Shown: positions 4,965-55,114 of the stretch, in pieces
How the letters are laid out: each line of letters starts with the position of its first letter
How positions within the stretch are numbered: position 1 is the first letter of the stretch
Source of the DNA: Nitratireductor indicus C115
GTDB lineage: Bacteria > Pseudomonadota > Alphaproteobacteria > Rhizobiales > Rhizobiaceae
Assembly: GCF_000300515.1 (NCBI RefSeq)
Contig: NZ_AMSI01000009.1
Coordinates: forward strand, 62,001 to 126,000
DNA: 64,000 bases
Direction: 5' to 3'
Made by a program: the position numbers and the translations under genes
The notes under the pieces: generated by a model
Databases searched by the model: none
The model's input: the letters and a program-made list of their open reading frames with translations, nothing else
Told to the model about the DNA's origin: nothing

Positions 4965-5615
4965 TTAGGGCCTCCATTTAAGAAAGTTTGCGATCAGAGC
5001 CAGGCCAAGGGTCTGGCTCTTTTCGGGATGGAACTGGGTGCCGGCGAGATTATCGCGCGCAACCGCAGCGGTGATCTCGCCGCCATAGTCGGCGGTCGCC
5101 AGGATTTCGTCCGGATTCTGCGCGGCGAGATGGTAGGAATGTACAAAATAGGCGTGCAGCCCGTCCGCACCGGTGGGGATTCCGGCGAAGAGCGGGTGCG
5201 AATGTTTCACGTGAATCGTGTTCCACCCGATCTGCGGAATCTTTAAATCCGGGTCGGTCGGGGTCATTTCCACCACATCGCCGGCGATCCAGCCGAGCCC
5301 CTTGGTGACGGTCTTTTCAAGACCGCGCCCGCTCATCAGCTGCATGCCGACACAGATGCCGAGAAAGGGCCTGCCTTTTTCAATCGCGACTTCTGTGATC
5401 GCCTCGGTCATGCCCGGAACGGCGTCGAGCCCCTGCCGGCAATCCGCATAGGCACCGACACCGGGCAGCACAATGCGGTCCGCAGCGCGCACGGCATCGG
5501 CATCCGCCGTCACCGAGATTTCAGCGCCCGTTCCCGATTCCCGCGCAGCGCGCTCGAAAGCCTTGGCTGCCGAGCGCAGATTGCCCGAGCCGTAATCGAT
5601 AATGGCCACTTTCAT
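4965..5615 (-). CDS. hisH: Imidazole glycerol phosphate synthase glutaminase subunit
   Basis: Class-I glutamine amidotransferase that supplies ammonia to HisF. The 216 residues contain the nucleophile C88 in [11 protein letters not shown] and the His-Glu pair H196/E198 in [11 protein letters not shown]. The start ATG 5615 ([12 protein letters not shown]) fits the family N-terminus; in-frame ATGs at 5627 and upstream are less likely. A parS-like palindrome lies within the coding sequence near 5203-5218, reported separately. Confidence 0.95.
5203..5218. other. parS-like ParB site inside hisH
   Basis: TGTTTCACGTGAATCG matches 14 of 16 positions of the widely conserved parS palindrome TGTTTCACGTGAAACA, including all of the first 13 bases. 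It lies within hisH, about 13 kb to the left of the putative origin, on the opposite side from the main parS cluster. Confidence 0.6.
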
Positions 5616-18339: not shown

Positions 18340-18720
18340 GTGGATGCATGTTGATAACGTCAGAGGTCAGGAATGGCGAGAGTCCCGCCTTTGAAAAACT
18401 CGCCGTTTCTTCCACAGGCAGAGGGATTGTGTACTCGATCCGGCAAATGTGGAGAACAAGCGACAATTCAATGTCTGTTCGCGATACTCCACACAAACGG
18501 TTCCAGTACGATTTATTCAGCCAATTGAATCTATTAAATGAATCCGGATGATCCCCAATCTTCCCCAGAGTGGACAAGGGACGGGGCGCGTCAATTCGAC
18601 CGGCTGGTTGAAGAGGGTTTCCGTGGACAGGATTGAATCCACATTACAAACAGAGTCATAGAATCAAAAGAATCCTCAAATCAGCCTTATCTTTTGAATC
18701 CAGACTGTGGAGCGAGGCGA
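18340..18720. other. Probable chromosomal replication origin (oriC)
   Basis: A 381-base gap between divergent ppsR and hemE, the location known for origins of Caulobacter, Rickettsia and some Rhizobiales. It holds DnaA-box-like nonamers (consensus TTATCCACA): 18349-18357 minus strand (TTATCAACA, 8/9), 18448-18456 minus (TTCTCCACA, 8/9), and weaker 7/9 matches at 18408-18416, 18485-18493, 18569-18577 (minus) and 18635-18643. An AT-rich block lies around 18509-18544 (ATTTATTCAG to CTATTAAATG), and the segment before hemE is also AT-rich. Genes on either side mostly point away. Assignment rests on position plus motifs. Confidence 0.75.
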
Positions 18721-23869: not shown

Positions 23870-25183
23870 ATGCGAGAGACCATATTCGCTCTTTCCAGTG
23901 GTGGGCTTCCCTCCGGCGTCGCGGTGATCAGGCTCTCCGGGCCAGATGTGCGCACGGCATTGAATGATCTGGTTGGGTTTGTACCGGAGCCTCGCAAAGC
24001 CGTTCTTAGGACGATGAAGGCTGAAGACGGCACTGTGCTGGACCGCGGGCTGATCCTGTTTTTCGAAGGGCCTTACAGTTTCACTGGTGAAGATTGCGCC
24101 GAACTCCAGCTTCATGGGGGCGTTGCAGTGGTGAAATCCGTTCTGGAAGCTCTTGGAGGGCGTGAGAATTTCCGGGCTGCCGATGCGGGAGAGTTTACAA
24201 AGCGTGGCTTTCTTAACGGGAAGTTCGATCTTACAGGCGCTGAAGCTCTTGCCGACCTGATATCTGCAGAGACCGAGGCGCAAAGACGCTTTGCCCTGGC
24301 AAATGGGGACGAGAGGCACCGCCAGCTTTATGCCGGATGGAGGCGGTCGCTGATCCATGCCCAGGCAATGATCGCCGCAGAGCTCGACTTTTCGGACGAA
24401 GAGGATGTTCCGGGATCGGTTGCCGATGCAATCTGGCAGGAATTGAGTGCTCTTCAAAGCGAGATTGAGGAGCATGCCGGCGGGTATCGCGATGCAGAGA
24501 TTGTCCGGGATGGATTCCGGGTTGTCATCCTTGGGGCACCGAACGCCGGAAAGTCCAGTCTGATGAACGCCCTCGCGAAGCGTGATATCGCGATCGTCAC
24601 GGAAGAGGCGGGAACAACCCGCGATATCCTCGAAACGGCGCTTGATATCGGTGGAGTTAAAGTCATCCTGACGGACACGGCAGGCATTCGAGAGAACCCC
24701 GGGCGCATTGAGGCTATAGGCATTGATCGTGCCATCGCTCGCGCCGGCGATGCCGATCTTATTTTGCTCCTGGAGGACGTGACAGAACCCCGTTCTGTAC
24801 CGCACCCTCAAGGTGTTCGCTTGCTGAGGATTGCCAACAAGATCGATCTCCTTGATGAGCGCCTTGTTGCAGAAGCGTATGATCTGGCGATATCTACTGT
24901 ATCCGGCGAGGGAATAAATGAGCTGTTGGTGCGCATCGGTGATCTAACAGAGGGAAGCAAAAAGCGTGCGCTGGACATCCTTCCGTTCAGGGAGCGGCAT
25001 GTGGGCCTGCTGATGGAAGCATCCAGACATATCGATCGCGCTTTTGGACAAGGTGCCGTTGGGCTCGAACTTCAGGCGGAGGAGTTGCGGCTCGCAGCTA
25101 TTGCTCTGGGACGTATCGCCGGGGAAATTGATGTTGAGGACTTGCTCGACACGATTTTCTCGCAGTTCTGTATCGGCAAGTGA
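23870..25183 (+). CDS. mnmE: tRNA modification GTPase MnmE
   Basis: With MnmG it forms the cmnm5/nm5 modification at U34 of tRNAs. The 437 residues have the N-terminal tetrahydrofolate-binding domain (TIFALSSGGLPSGVAVIRLSG), then an inserted G domain: G1 GAPNAGKSSLMNAL near 222, G2 TTRDILE, G3 DTAGIRE, G4 NKIDLL. The C-terminus FCIGK includes the conserved Cys. The start ATG 23870 fits the family; the frame opens upstream at 23708. A parS-like site overlaps the stop codon. Confidence 0.96.
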   Translation: MRETIFALSSGGLPSGVAVIRLSGPDVRTALNDLVGFVPEPRKAVLRTMKAEDGTVLDRGLILFFEGPYSFTGEDCAELQLHGGVAVVKSVLEALGGRENFRAADAGEFTKRGFLNGKFDLTGAEALADLISAETEAQRRFALANGDERHRQLYAGWRRSLIHAQAMIAAELDFSDEEDVPGSVADAIWQELSALQSEIEEHAGGYRDAEIVRDGFRVVILGAPNAGKSSLMNALAKRDIAIVTEEAGTTRDILETALDIGGVKVILTDTAGIRENPGRIEAIGIDRAIARAGDADLILLLEDVTEPRSVPHPQGVRLLRIANKIDLLDERLVAEAYDLAISTVSGEGINELLVRIGDLTEGSKKRALDILPFRERHVGLLMEASRHIDRAFGQGAVGLELQAEELRLAAIALGRIAGEIDVEDLLDTIFSQFCIGK

Positions 25184-25196
25184 CTCACGTGAAACA
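25181..25196. other. parS site 1 (mnmE stop)
   Basis: TGACTCACGTGAAACA, 14/16 to TGTTTCACGTGAAACA. Its first three bases are the mnmE stop codon TGA. It is the first of four sites in the mnmE-mnmG gap. Confidence 0.75.
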
Positions 25197-25214
25197 TTGA
25201 GCAGCAATACCGCG

Positions 25215-25230
25215 CGACTCACGTGAAACA
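25215..25230. other. parS site 2
   Basis: CGACTCACGTGAAACA, 13/16 to the consensus; the right half-site is perfect. It is 34 bases from site 1. Confidence 0.68.
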
Positions 25231-25249
25231 TTTGACGACCCGGCAAGGA

Positions 25250-25265
25250 TGACTCACGTGAAACA
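25250..25265. other. parS site 3
   Basis: TGACTCACGTGAAACA, 14/16 and identical to site 1. It is 35 bases from site 2, so sites 1-3 have almost equal spacing. Confidence 0.75.
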
Positions 25266-25285
25266 CGACATCCCTGGCGCAATAT

Positions 25286-25301
25286 TGTTTCACGTGAAAC
25301 G
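25286..25301. other. parS site 4 (near perfect)
   Basis: TGTTTCACGTGAAACG, 15/16 to the consensus, the best of the intergenic group and 36 bases from site 3. The gap from here to mnmG holds only a degenerate half-site near 25394. Confidence 0.9.
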
Positions 25302-25452
25302 ACGCAGACTCGCCCCCGCTTCATGCTCATCATAGCAATTGACTTCGATGCCTTGACGTAGCCTTCAGAACAAGACATTTGATGCCACATCCCATATTCA
25401 CGTGAAGAAGGCACTTCCGCCCGTGGCGGTAGTAGCTTTCGGGCAGGATCGC

Positions 25453-27321
25453 ATGAGCGAAGATTTCGACGTTGTTGTTATTGGTGGCGGACACGCCGGC
25501 TGCGAAGCTGCATCCGCATCCGCGCGCTCCGGTGCAAAGACGGCGCTGGTGACGCTTAAGTTCGATACGATCGGGACCATGTCATGCAATCCGGCAATCG
25601 GCGGGCTTGGCAAGGGACATCTGGTTCGCGAAGTCGATGCCCTTGACGGTATCATGGCGCGCGCCGCGGATGCTGCGGGCATTCAGTTTCGCCTTCTGAA
25701 CCGAAGAAAAGGCCCTGCGGTTCGCGGTCCGCGGACGCAGGCCGACCGCAAGCTTTATCGCGTAGCCGTTCAGGCGATGATATCCGAGCAGCCGAATCTG
25801 AGTGTTATTGAAGGTGAAGCGCTCGCGCTGCAGATCGAAGATGGGCAAGTCACCGGTTTGACCATTTCCGGTGAACGTGTCTTGAATTGCAGAGCGATTG
25901 TGCTGACGACAGGTACATTCCTGCGCGGGCTTATTCATATCGGTGAAACGCGGTTTCCGGCGGGCCGGATGAATGAGCAGGCCGCCGAGCGCCTCTCTAC
26001 TTCCATGGAGGCTGCAGGATTTAAGCTCGGACGGTTGAAAACCGGGACACCGCCGAGGCTTGATGGGAAAACCATCGACTGGTCAGGTCTGGACATGCAG
26101 CCTGCCGATGACCAGCCAACACCCTTTTCGCTGCTCACCGAGAAAATCAGAAATCCACAAATCGAATGCGGCATTACCCGCACAACTCCTGAAACTCACA
26201 GGGTAATCCGCGAGAATTTGCACCGTTCGGCTATGTATTCCGGGGCTATTGACGGTATTGGACCCCGCTATTGCCCCTCGATCGAGGACAAGATCGTCAA
26301 ATTTGGGGATCGGGACGGACATCAGATATTTCTCGAGCCTGAGGGATTGGACGATGACACGGTTTATCCGAACGGTATCTCCACCTCGCTTCCCCGCGAT
26401 GCGCAGGAAGCGCTTTTGAAAACCATCCCCGGCCTTGAGCACGTTCGGGTTTTGCAACCTGGTTATGCAATTGAGTATGATCACGTGGATCCGCGCGAGC
26501 TGGAGCCAACCCTTGAATCGCGCCGCGTTTCCGGCCTTTTTCTTGCTGGCCAGATCAACGGAACGACGGGCTATGAGGAAGCTGCTGCGCAAGGCGTCAT
26601 GGCGGGTATCAACGCCGCGCGGCGCGCCTCCGGAGCCGATGGCTTCGTGTTGGGCCGGGCAGATGCCTATATCGGAGTTCTCATCGATGACCTGATCACG
26701 AGGGGCGTGAGTGAGCCCTATCGCATGTTCACTTCACGTGCGGAGTATCGTTTGTCTCTACGTGCAGACAATGCGGATGTTCGGTTGACACCGGCCGCTA
26801 TCCGACTGGGGATCGCTTCATTCGAGCGGCGGGAGCGATTCGAGACGATGGAGCAGACACTGGCATCTGCACGCGAATTGATACAAACGCGCTCCCTCAG
26901 CCCGAACGAGGCAGTGCGTTTCGGGATATCGTTGAATCGCGACGGGGTTCGGCGCAGCGGATATGACCTTCTCTCCTATCCAGACGTCGGGTTTGAACAT
27001 TTGCAGCAGATATGGCCTGAACTGACGGATATTCCGGCGGACCTTGCGGAGAAGCTCGAGACGGAGGCGCGCTACGCCGTTTACCTCGAGCGCCAATCGA
27101 GCGACGCCGAGGCATTGCGCCGGGAGGAAGCGCGAGCCATACCGGAAACCCTTGATTTTCAAAGCGTTCCTGGGCTCTCCAATGAGTTGAAGCAAAAGCT
27201 GGCGCTTCGCCGGCCTCGAAGCATCGCCGAGGCACAGAAGATCGATGGAATGACACCTGCTGCCCTTGCGCTCGTGATTGCCATGATCCGTCAGGGCGAT
27301 GCGCAATTGGGTGCAGCGTGA
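25453..27321 (+). CDS. mnmG: tRNA uridine 5-carboxymethylaminomethyl synthesis enzyme MnmG
   Basis: FAD-dependent partner of MnmE in wobble-uridine modification. The 622 residues have the FAD motif [10 protein letters not shown] at residues 11-20, [38 protein letters not shown] and the C-terminal helical domain. The start ATG 25453 ([13 protein letters not shown]) is normal for the family; a GTG at 25402 would add 17 residues. The stop overlaps the rsmG start (GTGA). Confidence 0.97.
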
Positions 27322-27968
27322 ACATGCCCCGCTATGCAGAGTTGCAATCCTTGGCGGGGCCAGTTTCACGTGAAACATTTGAGCGCCTGAAAGCTTTCGA
27401 GCGGGTTTTCCTACGCTGGTCGAAAAGTATCAACCTGGCGGCTCCATCGACCCTGAATACGCTTTGGGAGCGGCATATTCTGGATAGTGCGCAGCTCTTG
27501 CGGCTGGCACCCGATGCGCGACAGTGGCTCGATCTTGGATCCGGCGGCGGCTTTCCGGGGGCTGTTATCGCTATCCTGATGTCTGAGCACGCGGATGCCG
27601 AAGTCAATCTCGTCGAAAGCAATCGAAAAAAAGCGGCGTTCCTTGTCGCTGCATTGAATGAAGTCGGAGTTGCCCCACGTGTGCATGCCCGGCGAATCGA
27701 GGATTGCTACGGGCTGATTCCGGCTCCGGACGTGGTGACGGCCAGGGCGCTGGCGGGACTTTCGCTGTTGTTGGAGCTGTCCCATCCATGGTTGCAAGCA
27801 GGTGCGCGCGCATTCTTCCATAAAGGCCGGGATTACCGGAGGGAACTGGAAGAAAGCGGTAACGCGTGGCGCTTCGATCTGGTAGAACATAAAGATAAGG
27901 TTGATGCGGAGGCAGTTATCCTCGAAATCAGCAACCCTATGAGGATTTCTTCAGCCGGGGCCGCATAA
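27318..27968 (+). CDS. rsmG: 16S rRNA (guanine527-N7)-methyltransferase
   Basis: Methylates G527 of 16S rRNA; loss gives low-level streptomycin resistance in other species. The 216 residues carry the SAM motif [13 protein letters not shown] and HILDSAQLL. The N-terminus contains [11 protein letters not shown], encoded across a parS-like palindrome (27362-27377). The start is GTG 27318, overlapping the mnmG stop; ATG 27324 is an alternative. Confidence 0.95.
27362..27377. other. parS site 5 inside rsmG
   Basis: AGTTTCACGTGAAACA, 15/16 to the consensus, within the start of rsmG, encoding VSRET. It is 2.1 kb from the intergenic cluster and 650 bases before parA. Confidence 0.88.
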
Positions 27969-28008: not shown

Positions 28009-28797
28009 ATGAAAAGCGGCACGCGTATCATCACAGTCGCAAACCAGAAGGGCGGTGTCGGGAAAACGACGACGGCCATCAATCTGGCCACGGCACTTGC
28101 CGCGATTGGCGAGAATGTCCTGGTTGTCGACCTGGATCCGCAGGGCAATGCCAGTACTGGCCTGGGCATCGACCGGCAGGCGCGGCATATCTCTTCCTAT
28201 GATGTTCTCACGGGCCGGGCCAGCCTCTGTGAGGCAGCGATGGAAACAGCTGTTCCTGGGCTTTCCGTCGTTGCTTCCACGCTTGATCTGCTCGGTATCG
28301 AGATGGAAATCTCTAATGCGCCGGATCGTGTGTTGAAATTGCGCAATTCTTTGCGTGATGAGTCGGTACCTTATTCCTACGTTTTGGTGGATTGCCCGCC
28401 CTCGCTCAATCTTCTCACGCTGAACGCGATGGCAGCTGCCGATTCGATCCTCGTTCCGTTGCAGTGCGAGTTCTTTGCGCTCGAGGGTCTGAGCCAGCTC
28501 TTGCAGACGGTCGAGCAAGTGCGCGGTTCCATCAATCCCGACCTGGGAATTCAGGGGATTGTTCTGACGATGTTCGATCGTCGAAACAACCTCGCAAACC
28601 AGGTGGTGGAAGATGTGCGTGCCCATATGGGCGAGACGGTCTATGAAACGATCATTCCGCGTAATGTGCGCGTGTCGGAGGCCCCCTCTTATGGGAAACC
28701 GGCAATCCTGTATGATCTGAAGTGTTCCGGCAGCCAGGCTTATCTTCAGCTGGCATCGGAGGTAATTCGCCGTGAAAGGCGTCTGCGCGCCGCCTGA
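28009..28797 (+). CDS. parA: Chromosome partitioning ATPase ParA
   Basis: Deviant Walker ATPase that drives ParB-parS complexes to the cell pole. The 262 residues have KGGVGKTTT at 14-22 (with the signature Lys), DLDPQGNAS, and DCPPSLNLLTLNAM. It has no N-terminal DNA-binding extension, so it is the chromosomal rather than plasmid type. It is followed 52 bases later by parB and preceded by several parS sites. Confidence 0.96.
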   Translation: MKSGTRIITVANQKGGVGKTTTAINLATALAAIGENVLVVDLDPQGNASTGLGIDRQARHISSYDVLTGRASLCEAAMETAVPGLSVVASTLDLLGIEMEISNAPDRVLKLRNSLRDESVPYSYVLVDCPPSLNLLTLNAMAAADSILVPLQCEFFALEGLSQLLQTVEQVRGSINPDLGIQGIVLTMFDRRNNLANQVVEDVRAHMGETVYETIIPRNVRVSEAPSYGKPAILYDLKCSGSQAYLQLASEVIRRERRLRAA

Positions 28798-28849: not shown

Positions 28850-29722
28850 ATGAACGAAGATCCTTCGCGCAAGCGTCTTGGCCGCGGTCTTGCCGCTTTG
28901 ATCGGTGAGATGGACAAGCCGGAAACGGCTCGGCACGAATCCGTTCGTGCGGATCGTTCGGTGCCCATCGAGTTCATTTCTCCCAATCCGCGCAACCCAC
29001 GCCGGCAGTTCGCCGAAGCCGAGCTGGGCGATCTTGCGCAGTCGATCCGCGAACATGGCATTGTGCAGCCCGTAGTCGTGCGTTCGGGCGAGGCGCCGGG
29101 CCGGTTCGAGATCATTGCCGGCGAACGTCGTTGGCGCGCGGCGCAGCGCGCGGGGCTGACCGATATTCCAGTTATTCTGCGCGAAGTGGATGACAAGGCG
29201 GCTCTGGAACTCGCGATTATCGAGAACGTGCAGCGGGCGGATCTCAATCCGCTTGAGGAGGCGCGCGGCTATCAGCAGCTTATCGATGAGCACAACTATA
29301 CGCAGGCCGATCTGGGGCAGGTGATCGGCAAGAGCCGCAGCCATGTCGCCAACACGCTTCGCCTCTTGAAGTTGCCGGATGCGATCTGCGATTTGATCAT
29401 CGACGGGTCGCTTTCTGCCGGACATGCGCGAACGCTCGTGACGGCTGCGGACCCTATCGGGCTTGCCCGGCGTATCATCGAGGACGGGCTCTCCGTTCGA
29501 CAGGCAGAAGCTCTCGCTGCGGCGCCGGCGAAGGAAGAGGGCGAGGCAAACGCTGCTCCGCGCAAGGAAAAAGATGCCGATACGCTGGCGTTGGAAAAGT
29601 TGTTGAGCGATCAGATCGGCTTGAAAGTGGCTATCAACCACAAGCAGCGCGGTGGAGAGTTGCGGATTGCCTACCGCTCCCTCGAGCAGTTGGACGAGCT
29701 TTGCCGCTTGCTCAAGCAGTAG
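28850..29722 (+). CDS. parB: Chromosome partitioning protein ParB
   Basis: CTP-dependent DNA clamp that loads at parS and spreads. The 290 residues have an N-terminal ParA-interaction segment (KRLGRGLAALIGE), the CTP-binding domain with NPRNPRRQF and GERRWRA (91-97), a helix-turn-helix (TQADLGQVIGKSRSHVANTLRLLKLP, about 140-165) and a C-terminal dimerisation domain after an Ala/Glu/Lys linker. It converges on holA. Confidence 0.97.
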   Translation: MNEDPSRKRLGRGLAALIGEMDKPETARHESVRADRSVPIEFISPNPRNPRRQFAEAELGDLAQSIREHGIVQPVVVRSGEAPGRFEIIAGERRWRAAQRAGLTDIPVILREVDDKAALELAIIENVQRADLNPLEEARGYQQLIDEHNYTQADLGQVIGKSRSHVANTLRLLKLPDAICDLIIDGSLSAGHARTLVTAADPIGLARRIIEDGLSVRQAEALAAAPAKEEGEANAAPRKEKDADTLALEKLLSDQIGLKVAINHKQRGGELRIAYRSLEQLDELCRLLKQ

Positions 29723-52165: not shown

Positions 52166-55114
52166 ATGCGCCTCGTCCCAATTGTCAGCGGCGCGGGCTT
52201 CCACCTGTAGGGGAACGGAGAGCGCGCGAGCCGGCAATGCCGCGTTTTCCATGATGTCGCAAATCACGGGAATGACCTTTTCGACGGCTTCTTCGGGTGC
52301 TTCGAAAACCAGTTCGTCATGCACCTGAAGGAGCATCTGCACTTCGCCCAGCCCGGCATTCTCAAGCGCGGCGTCCATGCGGGCCATGGCGCGGCGAATG
52401 ATATCGGCTGCCGAACCCTGGATCGGAGCGTTGATGGCGGCACGCTCGTTGAAAGCGCGCAGCTGAGGGTTGGACGAGCGGATTTCAGGGTAATGGGCCC
52501 TACGTCCGAAGATCGTCTCGACATATCCCGTGGCGCGGGCCTGCGCCTTGGTGTTGTCCATATAGTCCTTGATGCCGGGGAAACGCTCGAAATAGCGCTT
52601 GATGTATGCGCCTGCTTCCTCGCGCGGAATGCCGAGCTGATTGGCCAGACCAAAAGCCGAAATGCCGTAGATGATGCCGAAATTGATCGCCTTGGCGCGG
52701 CGGCGCACCTCGGGGGGCATGCCTTCGACCGGTACGTCGAACATCTCCGATGCCGTCATAGCATGAATGTCCAGCCCGTCGGCGAAGGCCTTCTTGAGCT
52801 CGGGAATGTCGGCGACATGGGCCAGAACCCGCAATTCGATCTGGCTGTAATCGGCGGAGATGAGCTTGCGGCCCCTGGGCGCGATGAACGCCGCGCGAAT
52901 CTTGCGGCCCTCCGCCGTGCGGACGGGGATGTTCTGCAAATTCGGTTCGGAGGAGGAAAGCCGCCCCGTCGTGGTGGATGCAAGCGCGTAGGAGGTGTGG
53001 ACGCGGCCAGTCTCTGCGTTAATATAGCCGGGCAGGGCATCCGTATAAGTGGATTTGAGCTTGGTCACCTGGCGCCAGTCGACGATCTTGCGCGGCAGCG
53101 GGTGGCCCGCCGTCGCCAGGTCCTCGAGAACCTGCGCGGATGTCGACCACTGGCCGGTTTTCGTCTTGCTGCCGCCGGGAAGCCCCATCTTTCCGAAGAG
53201 AATGTCGCCGAGCTGCTTGGGGGAGCCGATGGTGAAGCGCTCGCCTGCCAGTTCGTAGATTTCGTCTTCCATGGCCGCCGCAGTCTGGGCGAAGTCGCCG
53301 GACAGGCGCGACAGTATTTGTCGATCCACTTCGATGCCGCGGTGTTCCATGCGGCCTATCACCGGAATCATGGGGCGCTCGAGCCGTTCATAGACGGAAA
53401 CGAGACCACGAGCGGCGAGACGCGGTTTCAGCACCTGCCAGAGGCGCAGCGTGATGTCGGCATCCTCCGCCGCGTAGGCGGTGGCGCGCTCGATATCGAC
53501 CATGTCGAAGGTGATCTGGTTGCGGCCGCTGCCCGTCAGCTCCTTGTATGGAATGGGCACATGCCCGAGCCAGCGCTCGGAAAGAGCGTCCATGCCGTGA
53601 CCCACGGTGCCGTGGCTGCCGGTGCCGGCATCGAGCACATAGGAAATCAGCATCGTATCATCGCAATTCACGATCTCGACGCCGAGCCGATACATCAAAA
53701 GCCAGTCATATTTCAGGTTCTGGCCGATCTTGAGCACCGCCGGATCGGCCATCAGGCCGCGAATGGCATCAAGCGCTTCCTTTTCGGGTATCTGCCCCTC
53801 GATCAGACCGCCGCCCAGAAGATCGCCTGTGCCGTTCTTGTGGGACAGAGGCACGTAGGCAGCCTTGCCGGGTCGGCTCGCCAGCGAAAAGCCGCACAGC
53901 TCTGCCTGCATGGGGTCGAGGGAGGTGGTTTCGGTGTCGAAGGCCACCAGACCTGCCTCGTAGGCATCGGCGATCCATTCCCGCAGCGTGTCGAGATCGC
54001 GGATACAGACATAGGCAGTCCGGTCTATCGTCTGCGCGGGCGCTGCTTCAGCCAGGGCGTCGGCCAGTTTCTGCGGGGTATCGACACCGTCTGCGACGCT
54101 GGATGCAGCACTTGCTGTTCCCGTGGCGTCCTTTCCGGAAGCCGCATCGGAGCCCATATCGGGGCCATGTGCCTCATCGCCGGCTTCCACTTCCACATGC
54201 GTGGCATCGATCTCGCCCGCATCGGCGCCCGTTGCCTCGGCTACACGGCGGGTAAGCGTGGAGAATTCCATCGCCTTCAGGAAGCCGATCAGCTTTGGCC
54301 CGTCAGGGGGGCTAAGCTCGAATGTGTCCACGCCCTCTTCCACGGGGGCATCGATGCGCAGGCGCACCAGTTCACGTGAAACACGGGCCTTCTCGGCATG
54401 CTCGATCAGATTTTCACGGCGCTTGTTCTGCTTGATTTCGCCGGCCCGCTCCAGAAGCGTGTCGAGGTCGCCATATTCCTCCAGAAGCTGGGCGGCGGTC
54501 TTAGGCCCGATGCCGGGCACGCCTGGCACATTGTCGACCGAATCGCCGGTCAGCGCCTGCAGATCGATCATCTTTTCAGGCGGCACGCCCCATTTCTCGA
54601 TCACTTCCGGAATGCGGATTTCGCGATCCTTCATGGGGTCGTACATGGACACCTGGTCAGTGACGAGCTGCATCAAATCCTTGTCGGAGGAAATAATGGT
54701 CGTCTCAGCCCCGGCTTCCGAAGCCAGGCGGGCATAGGTGGCTATAAGATCGTCGGCCTCGAAACCCTGCAATTCGACGCAGGGAAGGTCGAAAGCGCGG
54801 GTCGCCTCGCGGATCAAGCCGAATTGCGGCACCAGATCCTCCGGCGGCTCGGAGCGATTGGCCTTGTATTCGGGATAGAGGTCATTTCGGAAAGTTTTCG
54901 AAGAGTGGTCGAAAATAACCGCGAAATGCGTGGGGGTGACACCCACTTCCGTATCGCGCGCATTCTGCAACAGCTTCCAGAGCATGTTGCAGAAGCCGGC
55001 GACGGCGCCCACCGGCAGGCCGTCGGATTTGCGGGTCAGCGGGGGCAGCGCGTGGTAGGCGCGAAAAATATAGCCCGAGCCGTCAACGAGGAAGAGGTGA
55101 TCGCCTTTTTTCAT
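52163..55114 (-). CDS. polA: DNA polymerase I
   Basis: Repair and Okazaki-fragment polymerase of 983 residues. The 5'-nuclease domain starts at LFLVDGSGYIFRAYHALP with ISSDKDLMQLVTDQV and LTGDSVDNVPGVPGIGPKTA. After a Glu/Ala/Asp-rich linker the 3'-5' exonuclease keeps its acidic residues (AFDTETTSLDP, GQNLKYDW, YAAEDADITLRL). The polymerase has motif A DYSQIELRVLAH, motif B RRAKAINFGIIYGISAFGLANQLG and motif C LLQVHDELVFE. ATG 55114 is the family start; the frame opens upstream at 55291. A parS-like sequence lies within it. Confidence 0.97.
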   Translation of the reverse strand: MKKGDHLFLVDGSGYIFRAYHALPPLTRKSDGLPVGAVAGFCNMLWKLLQNARDTEVGVTPTHFAVIFDHSSKTFRNDLYPEYKANRSEPPEDLVPQFGLIREATRAFDLPCVELQGFEADDLIATYARLASEAGAETTIISSDKDLMQLVTDQVSMYDPMKDREIRIPEVIEKWGVPPEKMIDLQALTGDSVDNVPGVPGIGPKTAAQLLEEYGDLDTLLERAGEIKQNKRRENLIEHAEKARVSRELVRLRIDAPVEEGVDTFELSPPDGPKLIGFLKAMEFSTLTRRVAEATGADAGEIDATHVEVEAGDEAHGPDMGSDAASGKDATGTASAASSVADGVDTPQKLADALAEAAPAQTIDRTAYVCIRDLDTLREWIADAYEAGLVAFDTETTSLDPMQAELCGFSLASRPGKAAYVPLSHKNGTGDLLGGGLIEGQIPEKEALDAIRGLMADPAVLKIGQNLKYDWLLMYRLGVEIVNCDDTMLISYVLDAGTGSHGTVGHGMDALSERWLGHVPIPYKELTGSGRNQITFDMVDIERATAYAAEDADITLRLWQVLKPRLAARGLVSVYERLERPMIPVIGRMEHRGIEVDRQILSRLSGDFAQTAAAMEDEIYELAGERFTIGSPKQLGDILFGKMGLPGGSKTKTGQWSTSAQVLEDLATAGHPLPRKIVDWRQVTKLKSTYTDALPGYINAETGRVHTSYALASTTTGRLSSSEPNLQNIPVRTAEGRKIRAAFIAPRGRKLISADYSQIELRVLAHVADIPELKKAFADGLDIHAMTASEMFDVPVEGMPPEVRRRAKAINFGIIYGISAFGLANQLGIPREEAGAYIKRYFERFPGIKDYMDNTKAQARATGYVETIFGRRAHYPEIRSSNPQLRAFNERAAINAPIQGSAADIIRRAMARMDAALENAGLGEVQMLLQVHDELVFEAPEEAVEKVIPVICDIMENAALPARALSVPLQVEARAADNWDEAH
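54368..54383. other. parS-like sequence inside polA
   Basis: CAGTTCACGTGAAACA, 13/16 to the consensus, with a perfect right half-site and the CACGTG core. It encodes VSREL in the 5'-nuclease region. It is about 36 kb from the origin and may be functional or chance. Confidence 0.4.

Follow-up and report, generated by a model that had tools for sequence, protein, structure and literature searches.

Intact and one-armed parS-like sites, the latter carrying the CcrM motif GANTC, lie together beside parAB in Nitratireductor indicus C115

The stretch of DNA analysed here (contig NZ_AMSI01000009.1 of Nitratireductor indicus C115; 64,000 nucleotides, hereafter the window) contains the genes of a chromosomal ParABS partition system and, close to them, a cluster of the 16-bp parS sites on which the centromere-binding protein ParB is expected to load. 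The genes in question, other genes interspersed, are ordered ppsR, hemE, rho (which we take to be rho from its sequence), mnmE, mnmG, rsmG, parA and parB. The cluster itself is a genuine, ordinary ParABS centromere region, and it appears to combine parS whose palindrome is intact, before mnmG and in rsmG, with a conserved one-armed form, GAYTCACGTGAAAC, in which one arm carries the change T3A and, in this cluster, T4C as well. The genes and sites of the region are as follows.

23870..25183, plus strand: mnmE, MnmE GTPase, with the start placed at the first Met of the matched model
25181..25196, plus strand: asymmetric parS-like site TGACTCACGTGAAACA, with GACTC in the altered arm; its first 3 bases form the mnmE stop codon
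25215..25230, plus strand: asymmetric parS-like site CGACTCACGTGAAACA, with GACTC in the altered arm
25250..25265, plus strand: asymmetric parS-like site TGACTCACGTGAAACA, with GACTC in the altered arm
25286..25301, no strand: parS with the 14-bp palindrome intact, TGTTTCACGTGAAACG
25394..25409, no strand: decayed parS-like sequence around the CACGTG at 25399, 11/16
25453..27321, plus strand: mnmG
27324..27968, plus strand: rsmG
27362..27377, no strand: parS in rsmG with the 14-bp palindrome intact, AGTTTCACGTGAAACA
28009..28797, plus strand: parA, ParA/MinD-type ATPase; none among the 25 NCBIfam models listed reached its cut-off
28850..29722, plus strand: parB, with TIGR00180 above its cut-off
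5203..5218, minus strand: asymmetric parS-like site in hisH, the sixth of the class, reversed and ~20 kb from the cluster, with GATTC (GANTC) in the altered arm on the minus strand

A first-pass annotation described five parS palindromes next to parA and parB, four of them in the gap between mnmE and mnmG. The gap sites at 25181, 25215, 25250 and 25286 are indeed spaced 34, 35 and 36 bases start to start, the fifth site lies inside rsmG at 27362 with 15/16 matches, and parA starts 632 bases beyond it (630 had been given). The placement in the gap also stands, except that the first site begins within the TGA stop codon of mnmE (25181-25183). As palindromes, however, only 25286 and 27362 qualify, as these alone among the window sites retain the 14-bp palindrome GTTTCACGTGAAAC; the sites at 25181, 25215 and 25250 are symmetric at only 5-6 of 8 base pairs and keep one intact arm each. 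Although the array beside parAB is real, its earlier description overlooked this asymmetry and the GANTC in three of the four gap sites. The altered arm reads GACTC in all three, in one common orientation; T3A converts GTTTC to GATTC and the further change T4C yields GACTC, and both are instances of GANTC, the motif of the DNA methyltransferase CcrM, which is thus found at the three gap sites and at 5203.

Against the 16-bp consensus TGTTTCACGTGAAACA, the sites at 25286 and 27362 each match at 15/16 positions, those at 25181 and 25250 at 14/16, and that at 25215 at 13/16. Seven sites in the window lie within three mismatches of TGTTNCACGTGNAACA, compared with a mean of 1.34 and a maximum of 5 in 100 shuffles, and the mnmE-mnmG gap (25181-25452) contains 5 of the window's 20 CACGTG hexamers. 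A site at 54368 (13/16), within a reading frame that is presumably polA-like, looks like chance. Across the 4.99-Mb draft genome, only 25286 and 27362 fall within one mismatch of TGTTNCACGTGNAACA; at two mismatches there is no excess (12 sites versus 14 for a reversed control pattern), so the imperfect sites are distinguished by clustering and conservation rather than by their genome-wide score.

The window's ParB, which is up to 89% identical to homologues of Nitratireductor, a genus of the Hyphomicrobiales, has the recognition helix GKSRSHVANT, the same as that of Caulobacter ParB. Its residues aligned to Caulobacter positions 173, 179, 184 and 201 are R, T, K and G, of which R173 and G201 are of the parS type, as expected of a cognate ParB.

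The cluster lies close to parAB and to a likely origin of replication (oriC), which we list here.

18340..18717, no strand: likely oriC between ppsR and hemE, with 8 GANTC and 2 DnaA-box-like sites

This gap packs its 8 GANTC into <400 bases and holds 2 of the window's 3 DnaA-box-like sites; GC skew changes weakly and is positive from ~24 kb onward. Based on these three features, oriC is probably in the ppsR-hemE gap, ~6.5 kb from the parS cluster. The proposal that the cluster is the main chromosomal centromere is therefore supported by its position beside parAB and the likely oriC, and sites are present at this place in relatives. We consider it highly probable that the cluster, with its mixture of intact and one-armed sites beside oriC, serves a chromosomal ParABS system as the centre of ParB loading.

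We surveyed genomes grouped around that of the window as its order, family and class; the order was taken as Hyphomicrobiales because the ParB sequence is nearest Nitratireductor. ParB was sought irrespective of parS in 150 genomes of the order (144 matched) and 190 of the class (173 matched). Among the matches listed, 100 loci of the order and 60 from the rest of the class (the outgroup) were fetched, chosen by list order and contig room; 44 matched genomes of the order thus lie outside the fetched set, and some fetched loci end at contig ends. The site search required one intact arm plus CACGTG (an CACGTGAAAC scan, with the other arm then read), so sites altered in both arms are uncounted; a separate check for GANTC in both arms of one site found none in the order loci. 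Matches to GNNTCACGTGAAAC occurred in 381/397 genomes of the order, but the arm counts that follow come from the fetched loci.

The 100 order loci contain 470 strand-wise matches to CACGTGAAAC, compared with 0-9 for five control 10-mers. Classified by their other arm, the 308 sites comprise 162 with the intact GTTT, 105 with GATT, 14 with GTTC, 9 with GACT, 6 with GCTT, 5 with ATTT, 2 each with GTCT and TTTT, and three other arms once each. GATTC or GACTC thus accounts for 114/146 imperfect sites in the order, as opposed to 1/10 in the outgroup, where 121 of 131 sites are intact, 8 have GTTC, 1 has GATT and 1 has another arm. Sites with GATT or GACT (GAYT) occur in 50/100 order genomes and 19/37 families; GCTT occurs in 6 genomes and 5 families. 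Many named ParB loci of relatives typically contain one to three GAYTC sites plus an intact site before mnmG and another in rsmG, so that the position of the sites is conserved, and 35 of 38 sequences (37 named loci and the window) have a GAYT site; a GAYT scan of more distant named loci such as L041, L042, L044, L046, L048 and L050 found none. In whole-genome searches of the family, GAYTCACGTGAAAC is present somewhere in 83/101 genomes (reversed-pattern control, 0), and the intact 14-mer in 98/101, mostly two each (control match in one genome). One family member, G665, has 19 intact parS 14-mers, where two are usual, and no GAYT site. The site sequences, their placement and their recurrence across the order are direct observations.

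The 114 GAYT sites of the order are distributed among the stretch upstream of mnmG (40), rsmG (15), the interior or end of mnmE (12), 10 other labelled places and 37 unlabelled ones; 4 of the 114 lie downstream of parB. This distribution bears on two explanations for the altered arm. Given the overlap between the first gap site and the stop codon of mnmE, the class might have arisen when that site took its TGA from there, the others being tandem copies. Yet 74/114 sites lie elsewhere than in the part labelled upstream of mnmG, including the 12 assigned to mnmE or its end. Furthermore, only 21/114 overlap the TGA that ends an open frame of 120 codons or more, 45/114 have a TGA without such a frame, 48/114 have no TGA, and both orientations are found. 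As a general cause, a stop-codon origin is largely refuted, explaining at most 21/114 sites, and we regard it as scarcely credible. Alternatively, the motif could be a promoter element through which GcrA, which acts with CcrM (PMC11514494), controls mnmG, rather than a partition site; a GANTC upstream of a gene would fit. However, a simple scan identified no sigma-70-like promoter in 25100-25600, the parS core is retained, and GAYT sites also occupy rsmG, mnmE and the region downstream of parB at the counts given above, making a promoter role quite improbable.

A third explanation is that ParB of the order, often with K or R at position 184, simply accepts T3A in one arm, GANTC being a by-product. 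The R-T-K-G combination, when built into Caulobacter ParB, makes that protein promiscuous, though at two other parS positions, and in the related protein Noc the lysine equivalent to 184 contacts the phosphate of thymine 2 in that paper's numbering, the base altered here (PMC7383237). Burkholderia ParBc1 in vitro retains high binding on parS with T3A in one arm and intermediate binding on half-randomised parS, whereas symmetric changes abolish binding except at positions 1-16 and 5-12 (PMC5450999); this tolerance of a one-arm change shows that such one-armed sites can be bound. GATT is also present in genomes where CcrM was not found. On the other hand, R-T-K-G occurs equally often in order genomes lacking GAYT (32/50) and in those that have it (29/50), so it may permit GAYT sites but does not dictate them; likewise, residue 184 fails to separate genomes with and without GAYT, which eliminates this single ParB residue as the cause. 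T3C is tolerated in vitro like T3A (PMC5450999), yet A exceeds C at the altered position by 114:6 sites and 19:5 families in the order. Moreover, GACT outnumbers GATC, whereas the GT arms of the order set drift the other way. We put the chances that ParB tolerance alone explains the class at about even.

In a scan of all ParB alignment columns, with no correction for kinship, glutamine at position 153 (window numbering) was found in 23/50 order genomes with GAYT and 0/50 without; this position adjoins the glutamine aligned to Caulobacter Q162.

A fourth explanation is that the site is a composite of parS and a CcrM target, the GANTC arm being kept either through tuning of ParB loading by its methylation state or through protection of the site from CcrM by ParB; the arm would be hemimethylated just after replication and fully methylated late in the cycle. 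The required enzyme is encoded in the window's genome, where a ccrM product has a RAMA domain above its cut-off and, as its best NCBIfam match, the CcrM model NF050803, at 644.8 bits against a cut-off of 830. In Caulobacter, GANTCs near the origin stay hemimethylated for longer (PMC11514494). Besides the predominance of GANTC among imperfect order sites (114/146, in 19/37 families), the pattern of substitution within arms is consistent with a constraint on the motif. In GA arms, N departs from T in 9/114 order sites and in 35/75 sites of the 38 named and window sequences, while the T after N is changed in 0/114 and 2/75 (both GACC). GT arms of the order set show the reverse, with 2 changes at the N position and 14 at the next T among 178; in the named set, though, GT arms are unchanged at both (0 and 0 of 66). 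Counted by family (4 and 0 versus 1 and 9 families), a one-sided Fisher test gives p 0.005. Against this, N is T or C in these sets and never A or G. GANTC is also scarce overall, with 114 observed and 259 expected in the window and 3360 and 6139 in the order loci (Markov); however, the outgroup shows the same scarcity (1695 versus 3347 expected), and in the window CTNAG is depleted to a similar degree. Taken together, N drift, GANTC scarcity and the presence of ccrM lean towards selection on GANTC, as judged from sequence.

The distribution of CcrM speaks against the composite explanation, as the site class does not track CcrM presence across genomes. CcrM matches were identified in 146/150 genomes of the order, 101/101 of the family and 137/190 of the class; the 101/101 means that the family offers no test by CcrM absence. 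A match is present in 54/60 outgroup genomes, of which only 1/60 has a GAYT arm, and among genomes from other orders of the class GATT was found in 0/24 and GCTT in 2. Conversely, outside Alphaproteobacteria GATT occurs in 7/149 sampled genomes and GCTT in 3. Six of the seven GATT genomes have no CcrM match at 1e-20, the other having a 33% match with stops, and 12/14 genomes of those families lack a match; a one-armed GATT arm can therefore exist without CcrM. These two observations, an outgroup with CcrM but without the class and GATT without CcrM, led us to reject CcrM presence as the sole cause. Outside the class, A and C appear at the altered position in 3 and 2 families, respectively, so the preference for A is not clearly tied to CcrM. 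We consider the composite explanation less likely than not; ParB tolerance alone is somewhat more likely than methylation-driven selection, and the two are compatible.

Of the seven non-alphaproteobacterial GATT stretches (L225-L231), five yielded a match to mnmE or mnmG and two yielded nothing. In those five, one GATT site lies between mnmE and mnmG, one between parA and parB, and the others some kilobases off.

Several points weigh against the view that one-armed sites contribute to a ParB-loading centre. The class is not essential, as GAYT is absent from 50/100 order loci and 18/101 family genomes. One-armed sites found in nature might have little or no activity, since the Burkholderia variant with T3A in one arm showed no in vivo incompatibility (PMC5450999). 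ParB binding in this organism, too, is a prediction from sequence.

The spacing of the gap sites had been proposed to set the helical face of loaded ParB, a proposal that our comparison did not support. In eight Nitratireductor loci, neighbouring sites are 31-49 bp apart. We tested phase on family-distinct spacings of ≤60 bp in the fetched order and class loci (n = 39); 28/39 lie between 35 and 51 bp, and no significant phase was detected (R 0.22, p 0.15). When 110 spacings are pooled, R is 0.38 with a nominal p near 2e-7 and bunching at 36-38 and 47 bp, but these values share ancestry and so are not independent; the signal weakens once a given spacing is counted a single time per family, and we rejected a helically phased array.

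In its 16-bp consensus and its clustering near parAB and the origin, the region resembles the chromosomal parS of Caulobacter and Bacillus (ParABS, Spo0J/Soj); unlike those, it has one-armed sites, carrying T3A and GANTC, at three of the four clustered positions. A mixture of perfect and imperfect sites is shared with Pseudomonas aeruginosa, whose ParB ranks imperfect parS below perfect parS (PMC4368675), a ranking of affinity that we predict here; the imperfect sites there have various mismatches, whereas here one recurring change dominates. The T3A variant of Burkholderia cenocepacia parSc1 has the same single-arm change, but as a laboratory probe (PMC5450999) rather than a natural repeated class. 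GANTC lies near repABC-type parS in Paracoccus pAMI4 (PMC9040568) and on Agrobacterium chromosome 2, where one is suggested to matter for partitioning (PMC11514494); in the accessible parts of these papers, neither is stated to be inside parS. The same applies to GANTCs at the Caulobacter parS locus, which served as a control without significant methylation change (PMC5172544). MucR, which occludes CcrM-sensitive GANTC, is an example of a DNA-binding protein over GANTC in Alphaproteobacteria, but at promoters (PMC5172544). We found no description of a one-armed parS class coinciding with the CcrM motif in accessible literature, where GATTCACGTGAAAC, GACTCACGTGAAAC and GTTTCACGTGAATC had 0 occurrences; supplements and most subscription journals were outside this search, and parS lists for Agrobacterium, Sinorhizobium and Brucella may show such sites. 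The composite class would be a testable new variant.

In the model we propose, ParB would probably load strongly on intact sites and more weakly on one-armed sites and then spread, and ParA would move the ParB-parS complex, giving the cluster its presumed role in segregation. Methylation of the altered arm, a CcrM target sequence, might affect ParB loading. In its extended form, to which we give roughly one chance in three, Hyphomicrobiales would carry a second, methylatable parS class; fork passage and late remethylation would change ParB loading and so couple segregation to the replication cycle, with intact sites constant and GANTC sites tuned to the cell cycle.

The way in which bacteria coordinate their centromeres with replication is of general interest; should a centromere site double as a cell-cycle methylation site, a direct link between the two could be tested. 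Even without methylation, the recurrence of a one-armed class across the order suggests a regular arrangement of graded sites in natural centromeres, and it cautions against counting parS by the perfect palindrome alone.

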